A stretch of DNA of 46,578 nucleotides from Gammaproteobacteria bacterium (GTDB lineage: Bacteria; Pseudomonadota; Gammaproteobacteria; Arenicellales; Poriferihabitantaceae), in assembly GCA_011523765.1 (NCBI GenBank), contig WTGA01000092.1:1-46578 (forward strand). Direction: 5' to 3'. Within the stretch, counting starts at the first letter, position 1, and each line of letters starts with the position of its first letter. The notes beneath the pieces were generated by a model. That model was not told the origin of the DNA, ran no database searches, and was given only the letters and a program-made list of their open reading frames with translations. Made by a program: the position numbers and the translations under genes. Positions 36,859 to 38,020 of this stretch are shown here, one piece after another.

Positions 36859-37234
36859 CGGACTGTCGCAGCAAACTTCAGGATGGGTGATGGCATGACC
36901 TGATCCAGGGAGGGGAAATCGGTGAGCACGGGAAAGAGGTCCATTTTCCGCGGGGAATCAAGCGGGGCATTGCGCGAAACCCAACAGTCATCTGGTTTTG
37001 ACTGCGCTTTGTTTCGTCGCATTCCGACAATAATTTATCATCAAGCATCCTGTAGAATTATTGCCCCCAACCGGGTAAAGCACCGGGCGCGCGTTTCGGG
37101 ACTGGGTTGGGGTTTCACCCCGATTGACGGTGTTTCAGTCCTCACTTCCCGGCCGTATGACCACACATGGTACCACAGCGGTCGCGGCTTTAACACCGTA
37201 CGTCCAGGCACTGGATTTCACGCGTTTACAAGCG
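36859..37234. other. Gene-free interval before the NYN leader
   Basis: About 375 bp with no recognisable gene. Its right end runs into the leader promoter of the NYN gene. Confidence 0.45.
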
Positions 37235-37240
37235 TATAAT
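37235..37240 (+). promoter_or_regulatory. -10 box of the NYN gene promoter
   Basis: A consensus TATAAT lies about 27 bp upstream of the first leader stem. No good -35 hexamer is at the usual distance. Transcription would begin near 37247 and give a leader of about 110 nt. Confidence 0.5.
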
Positions 37241-37266
37241 GCTGTAATGTAATACGTTGAAATAGC

Positions 37267-37340
37267 GCTCTTGGCAGTACGCCTACCTGGATTTGATCTA
37301 GAAGGAAGGCAGAACCCAAGAGCTTTTTTGTTTCTAGATC
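37267..37340 (+). ncRNA. Structured leader with interleaved stems (candidate attenuator or pseudoknot)
   Basis: Two pairs of complementary arms are interleaved. GCTCTTGG (37267-37274) pairs with CCAAGAGC (37316-37323), which is followed by six T, so it resembles an intrinsic terminator. GATCTAGAA (37295-37303) pairs with TTCTAGATC (37332-37340). An inner pair GCCTACC/GGAAGGC (37281-37287, 37304-37310) matches at 6 of 7 positions. Arms 1-2-1'-2' can make a pseudoknot or two alternative folds. The last arm ends five bases before the AGGAGG ribosome site of the NYN gene. Confidence 0.55.
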
Positions 37341-37344
37341 TGTC

Positions 37345-37350
37345 AGGAGG
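37345..37350 (+). promoter_or_regulatory. Strong ribosome binding site of the NYN gene
   Basis: AGGAGG lies 8 bases before ATG 37359, which fixes the start of the frameshifted NYN gene. Confidence 0.8.
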
Positions 37351-37358
37351 ATTAGGTA

Positions 37359-38020
37359 ATGTCTACTGCGATTCTGGTCGACGGTGGTTTCTTTTTTAAA
37401 ACGCTTTCGCCAAGTATACCCCGATATTGATGGCCGCAACGCACAGGACATGGCCAAGACGTTCTATAGAATGGCGATGGCACATTTGGAAAAAGATGAA
37501 GTGTTGTATCGGACTATTGTTCTATGACTGTCCGCCGTTAAAAAAGAAGGCTCATAACCCAGTTAATCAATCACTGATAGATTTCGAAAAACTCCCGGGT
37601 TCCCAGCTAAGGGTCCAGTTTCATACTGAATTGAAGAAATTGCGCAAGGTTGCTCTTCGGTTGGGATATCTGTCGAACAAGAATGACTGGGTGATCAAAC
37701 CCGATAAGACTAAAAAACTCCTCAAGAGAGCAACCTCGGTCGACGATCTCAAACCAAATGATGTCATCTATGACATCAACCAAAAAGGTGTCGATATGAG
37801 GATCGGTCTCGATATTGCGGCACTTTCGCTAAAGCGGTTTGTAAAAAAGATCATACTGATCTCCGGTGATGCGGATTTTGTTCCGGCGGCCAAGTTTACC
37901 CACCGCGAAGGAATTGATTTTGTACTTGATCCGATGTGGAATAATATCAACCCTGCGCTGTTCGAACATATTGATGGACTACGCTCTACCAGTCCGCGAC
38001 CAACCGGGTACCGCCCATAG
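37359..38020 (+). pseudogene. NYN-domain (PIN-like) nuclease with two frameshifts
   Basis: The gene starts at ATG 37359 with MSTAILVDGGFFFK in frame 1. After a run of T and A (near 37387-37400) the coding frame moves to RFRQVYPDIDGRNAQD. Near 37520 it moves again to FYDCPPLKKKAHNPVNQ and runs to TAG at 38020. Each shift is repaired by removing one base. The assembled protein has NYN features: N-terminal VDGG aspartate, KGVDMRIGLDIAALS, and ILISGDADFVPA with its acidic residues. NYN proteins are predicted RNases. Lysine-rich, lower-GC codon use differs from neighbours, suggesting transfer. Sequencing errors in homopolymers are an alternative at the first site. Confidence 0.8.

Follow-up and report, generated by a model that had tools for sequence, protein, structure and literature searches.

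In type III toxin-antitoxin systems (ToxIN, CptIN and TenpIN), an RNA and a terminator stand before the gene of an endoribonuclease (PMC5086642, PMC8860590). The AbiF/RCd22 system of Clostridioides difficile has a small RNA antitoxin with its own promoter and a Rho-independent terminator, with read-through into the downstream gene (PMC12373285).

We analyzed a window of 46,578 nucleotides, the whole stretch of DNA taken from contig WTGA01000092.1, in which a structured RNA precedes an NYN nuclease gene. This locus and its relatives resemble type III systems in that an RNA with a predicted promoter and terminator of its own lies directly upstream of an endoribonuclease-family gene, and in that the module is mobile, being carried by phages and plasmids. 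They differ in the protein fold, which is NYN/PIN-like rather than that of ToxN, CptN or TenpN, in the RNA, which is a single copy and not a set of tandem repeats, and in the lack of a conserved pseudoknot. Like AbiF/RCd22, the module has a small RNA immediately before a nuclease gene that originates from phages, whereas the protein there is Abi_2/HEPN and the proteins here have NYN matches only, and the conserved hairpin here is itself the terminator. When all Rfam families were run with cmscan, neither the window nor any of 45 loci matched the abiF motif (RF03085). As defining features of both type III and AbiF are lacking, we assigned the module to neither; it may work like these systems.

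The protein belongs to the PIN-like endoribonuclease fold class, as in VapBC, but no conserved neighboring antitoxin protein was found here, the neighbors differing across the eight annotated records. The LabA/TIGR00288/DUF88 proteins share the NYN fold and a weak profile similarity, whereas the score obtained is far below the TIGR00288 cut-off (28 vs 178 bits). Structured RNA motifs upstream of DUF3800 genes were reportedly described by Weinberg and colleagues in 2017. Two of our loci (L143 and L144) have the present RNA before DUF3800; the main partner here, in contrast, is NYN, and no Rfam model, including any DUF3800 model there, matches.

A nested hairpin in front of NYN genes

The initial annotation had described the window leader as two interleaved arm pairs between a TATAAT box and an AGGAGG site, the first pair ending in six T, and a check of the sequence placed all of these elements where they had been reported (Table 1). 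It had overlooked an inner stem (37281-37284/37307-37310 and 37286-37288/37303-37305; GCCT.CCT / AGG.AGGC) and the internal loop CAGTAC / AGAAC between this stem, P2, and the outer stem, P1. As both sit inside the first arm pair, the element is one nested hairpin, whose P1 is a perfect 8-bp stem directly before T6 in the window. The folding energy of 37260-37330 was -23 kcal/mol (z = -2.8), while the fold of the whole 112-nt leader was not unusual (z = -0.8).

Table 1. Features of the leader and gene in the window (contig WTGA01000092.1)
Feature	Position	Strand	Evidence
Probable RNA promoter: TTTACA (37225-37230), 17 nt, TGTAAT (37248-37253), 13 nt before outer stem	37225-37253	+	sequence only
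TATAAT box of the initial annotation, alternative promoter element	37235-37240	+	sequence
Small RNA, nested hairpin with terminal U-run	37263-37331	+	R1 match, 51.6 bits, E 3e-12; family covariation
Outer stem P1, 5' arm GCTCTTGG	37267-37274	+	perfect pairing with 37316-37323
Internal loop, 5' strand CAGTAC	37275-37280	+	GUA invariant in 40/40 family copies
Inner stem P2, 5' arm GCCTACCT, one A.A mismatch inside	37281-37288	+	sequence and family pairing
Second (pseudoknot) arm pair, 5' arm GATCTAGAA	37295-37303	+	perfect complement of 37332-37340
Inner stem P2, 3' arm AGGAAGGC	37303-37310	+	sequence and family pairing
Internal loop, 3' strand AGAAC (family: CGANC)	37311-37315	+	family alignment
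Outer stem P1, 3' arm CCAAGAGC	37316-37323	+	sequence and family pairing
T6 run TTTTTT, terminator tail of the RNA	37324-37329	+	sequence and family columns
Second (pseudoknot) arm pair, 3' arm TTCTAGATC; this window only	37332-37340	+	not shared by the 76 relatives
Shine-Dalgarno site AGGAGG of the NYN gene	37345-37350	+	sequence
NYN nuclease gene, ATG at 37359; two frame shifts between about 37400 and 37525	37359-38020	+	Pfam, phrog_5783

A scan of genome contigs yielded 80 homologous NYN loci from Proteobacteria, Bacteroidota, Acidobacteria, Planctomycetes, Verrucomicrobia, Lentisphaerae, Spirochaetes and Rhodothermales. The regions upstream of these orthologues carried the same hairpin, with changed arms and nearly unchanged loops. 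A covariance model of the RNA, R1, used with a threshold of E <= 0.05, gave 88 sites in 100 loci, with one match per site and no tandem repeats of the RNA unit. R1 placed the RNA before 70 of the 80 NYN homologues, and a matching stem and T-run placed it before eight more; of the remaining two, the contig of L060 was too short and L070 had no recognizable copy. Since 37 of the 80 loci served to build R1, only the other loci, the copies on phages and plasmids and the whole-genome scans count as independent support.

Covariation was scored in 40 copies, using an unfitted MAFFT alignment. Compensatory changes on both sides occurred in 13 of 15 pairs (8.7 in shuffles) and amounted to 106 cells (32 in shuffles), and most of this signal was gone when the register was slid by one column. 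P1 was paired in 92.8% of cells, with compensatory changes in 7 of its 8 pairs, and P2 in 83.6%, with such changes in 6 of 7, so that the nested stems account for the covariation. Conservation and covariation upstream of orthologous NYN genes, the test set beforehand for the two arm pairs, thus held for the first pair and failed for the second. The hairpin is almost certainly truly conserved, and the view of a structured, terminator-bearing RNA ahead of an NYN nuclease gene is borne out by conservation and covariation alike.

Judged from its sequence, the RNA is a hairpin of about 65 nt that carries its own stop signal. The family architecture comprises an 8-bp outer stem, an internal loop (5' CAGUA[A/C], 3' C-GA-N-C), an inner stem, a loop with an invariant AU and a terminal U-run. 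The GUA of the 5' internal strand and one A of the 3' strand were invariant in 40/40 copies, and T was present in at least 35 of the 40 at the four columns after the first tail position. Bacteroidota copies are without the AGUA of the internal loop. One copy (L012:3679-3794) has an AT-rich insert of about 50 nt in the terminal loop, and the hairpin tip thus tolerates large inserts.

Among 75 family members, -10-like boxes clustered at 10-12 nt upstream of the outer stem (31 vs about 6 expected). In the window, TTTACA-17-TGTAAT fits this family spacing better than the TATAAT favored previously; the automatic promoter scan had left it out because that scan demands A at position 2. Downstream, the U-run directly follows the stem and the start codon lies a median of 26 nt from the outer-stem end, which places a predicted terminator between the RNA and the NYN gene. 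On a Campylobacter plasmid (L091:4880-5000), an RNA core without its own U-run was seen by eye, followed by a separate terminator-like hairpin and then the NYN gene.

The second arm pair had been proposed to compete or knot with the first. It is 9 bp long and perfect in the window; only 0.15% of shuffles had such a pair. In the 76 relatives, however, no pair exceeded 7 bp, the same as in mismatched controls. A pseudoknot or competing stem as a family feature was accordingly rejected as private to the window sequence. Nor can the pair serve for antitermination, since the terminator precedes its 3' half. No conserved alternative pairing of the kind used by a riboswitch or attenuator with two exclusive stems was found in the 76 relatives. 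This bears on the reading of the RNA as a cis-acting attenuator, in which a regulated terminator in the NYN mRNA leader would be bound or cut by the NYN protein, tuning its own read-through. The position of the hairpin directly upstream of the start codon, its terminator form and a gene product that is a nuclease all agree with such a scheme, whereas the lack of alternative pairing argues against it.

Cmscan of the window and 45 loci with Rfam 15 gave no family above its gathering threshold at the RNA. At E up to 1 there was still no match at the RNA, and a further scan gave chance-level matches; the sub-threshold matches in the window were to miRNA, lncRNA and CRISPR models at chance level and were set aside. 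No description of the RNA was found in a search of open-access PMC papers. The earlier statement that no described RNA class applies is therefore upheld as far as Rfam goes: the RNA is conserved across many phyla, phages, plasmids and chromosomes and is tied to one NYN clade, yet is not in Rfam.

The RNA with and without its nuclease

The open part of the window ORF matched Pfam NYN (PF01936) at 4e-7, which confirms the family given to the downstream gene, and the window fragment matched phrog_5783 at 1.5e-64; homologues matched phrog_5783 over most of their length (E 2e-72 to 1e-119). The gene had been taken to encode a probable RNase that might cut or bind the leader. Its NYN family stands, but as sequenced it is broken by two frame shifts that had been missed, and its RNA is intact. 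The frame shifts reflect either true decay or an assembly error, and two further genomes from this taxonomic family (L003 and L004) have intact NYN homologues. Acidic positions in VDG, KGVD, RIGxD and GDxDF were invariant in 22 homologues and are the predicted catalytic acids. An alignment-based structural model of a homologue (pLDDT 89.6) had an NYN fold and matched PDB structures of VPA0982, a protein of unknown function, and of the Marf1 NYN domain. ToxN was not found among the PDB matches of this model, and no solved structures related by sequence to the NYN protein were found.

Among 100 relatives, R1 recovered the copies of the window, L003 and L004, each beside an NYN gene. One further genome held two copies, one (L100) before an NYN gene of another subfamily and one solitary (L101:1501-1569, minus strand), with no adjoining NYN gene. 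In 369 gammaproteobacterial genomes there were 11 R1 copies: seven before intact NYN genes, three before broken ones (window, L106 and L111) and one alone (L108). These genomes held 10 intact main-clade NYN genes, seven with R1 matches in that scan; of the other three, L117 had an R1 match in a laxer scan, and L113 and L120 had a divergent copy recognized by eye. No intact main-clade NYN gene without an RNA-like hairpin was seen in the gammaproteobacterial samples. Genomes with only a weak phrog_5783 match, that is, a distant LabA-type NYN, had no R1 match, L100 being the one exception. In whole genomes, R1 matches fell at NYN genes or their remains, with L101, L108 and L152 as solitary copies.

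A scan of 217 Lysobacteraceae genomes gave 13 full copies of the RNA. Four lay before an intact NYN gene, one before a broken one, two before prmA with NYN gone, two before DUF3800 (PF12686; L143 and L144) and two before type I restriction HsdR, and two were alone. Two short R1 matches of 33-34 nt without the inner stem (L153 and L154) were discarded as apparently ordinary terminators.

Blast of the flanks revealed two changes at fixed sites: RNA-NYN-prmA against RNA-prmA (L146 and L151), and, with shared flanks, RNA-NYN (L103), RNA alone (L142) and RNA-DUF3800 (L143 and L144). The two prmA genomes that have lost NYN share 95.5% identity in the RNA (64/67) but 64% in the third positions of conserved prmA codons (172/268), and the 100 bases upstream were unalignable. 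The RNA was also kept beside broken NYN genes in the window, L106, L111 and L149. In E. coli, 274 of 5426 genomes carry a lambdoid-phage copy or part of it, 73 of them covering at least 80% of the query. Many remaining copies retain the RNA end next to a truncated NYN gene; in the one case viewed (L167), IS1203 follows the truncated gene and the RNA is uncut.

The RNA without a nuclease is thus common, and a main-clade nuclease without the RNA was not seen in our samples. This asymmetry is expected of a toxin and its antitoxin and is hard to reconcile with a purely cis-acting leader. The idea of a leader regulating only its own mRNA is accordingly weakened, as the RNA is conserved where NYN is broken, deleted or replaced by DUF3800. 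Together with the solitary copies, its conservation after such loss or replacement makes the cis-acting attenuator unlikely.

Could the element be nothing but an intrinsic terminator of upstream transcription, or the structural end of a mobile cassette? It has the form of a terminator, after gene loss it stands between housekeeping genes (L146 and L151), and cassettes are exchanged just behind it. However, a mere terminator has no need of an internal loop with an unvarying GUA and A, of a covarying inner stem or of a -10 box at constant spacing. Terminators do not keep their sequence from phylum to phylum, and the Campylobacter plasmid core, by eye, has no U-run. We consider this explanation highly improbable.

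Carriage on phages and plasmids

In the lambdoid phage ev099, the module lies between the repressor and N; in the Proteus phage Brookers, it adjoins the repressor; in a streptococcal phage, it lies between a repressor-like gene and integrase; and in a Moraxella phage, it is beside isrK and C4 RNAs. The phage copies thus lie in immunity regions. Conjugative plasmids of Campylobacter and Xanthomonas carry the module as well, and a Thermus plasmid has it flanked by genes for a helicase-related protein and an N-6 DNA methylase. Such phage and plasmid sites are typical places for exclusion or defense cargo. At four unrelated loci (L028, L065, L090 and L092), C4 antisense and isrK prophage-immunity RNAs were present no more than about 2 kb from the NYN module.

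Possible roles of the RNA

The promoter spacing and terminator of the RNA, and its conservation after NYN loss or replacement, fit an independent, antitoxin-like RNA better than a leader. We therefore lean towards regarding the RNA and the NYN gene as a nuclease module, in which a self-terminating RNA antitoxin or inhibitor is followed by read-through into the nuclease. The promoter would give rise to a small RNA of about 65 nt, a single nested hairpin that stops at its own terminator. Most transcripts would end there, leaving the RNA in excess, and occasional read-through would supply the mRNA of the NYN endoribonuclease. The RNA may bind the nuclease directly through the conserved internal loop (CAGUA/GAA) and the inner hairpin and hold it inactive. 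If the RNA were lost or transcription blocked, for instance during phage attack, a presumably toxic nuclease would be set free, as in type III and AbiF/RCd22, giving the module a possible anti-phage role. Certain observations temper the antitoxin reading: linkage and a terminator alone also fit cis attenuation; the RNA before prmA in L146 and L151 could have been kept as a prmA leader or terminator; L113, L117 and L120 are divergent, recognized by weak score or by eye, with no recognizable copy at L070; and the ToxN fold, repeats and pseudoknot of canonical type III systems are lacking.

Deep co-conservation of the RNA with one NYN clade, the invariant internal loop and the variable terminal loop would also suit a cofactor or guide that forms an active ribonucleoprotein with the nuclease and is needed for its activity or aim, not for inhibition. 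Yet the RNA persists without the nuclease in several lineages, which counts against this role because a cofactor lacking its enzyme should decay; none of the samples showed an intact nuclease lacking the RNA, and the variable loop bears no sign of array or spacer content. A cofactor or guide role is, in our view, quite improbable.

A variant of the antitoxin reading concerns the replacement of NYN by DUF3800. The bulged-G consensus of the sarcin-ricin loop is AGUA/GAA, and the internal loop of the RNA fits it. Some VapC/PIN toxins cut the sarcin-ricin loop (PMC13273310), so mimicry of that target is possible. One RNA family might then serve unrelated nucleases (NYN and DUF3800) as an exchangeable antitoxin through a sarcin-ricin-like bulged-G loop, perhaps as a decoy for the ribosomal or other RNA that the nuclease targets; we regard this as quite unlikely.

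If the RNA is an antitoxin, the NYN (PIN-like) nuclease family and this RNA family would join the short list of RNA-neutralized toxins, phage immunity regions would be one home of the module, and many genes now labeled "NYN domain-containing protein" would be annotated differently. With natural deletions at hand, and with NYN in some genomes and DUF3800 in others behind an RNA that hardly differs, the choice between an independent RNA and a leader is directly testable.

A second NYN clade (ILLDAGF..KRKL; L005, L006, L125 and L161) has a different structured element upstream. It consists of two stems, a GGG-CUUG-CCC-like tip and a U-run (for example, GGCGGG..TGTGCGC..GCGCAC..CCCGCC), and may represent another RNA, unrelated to the first, that belongs to this clade.
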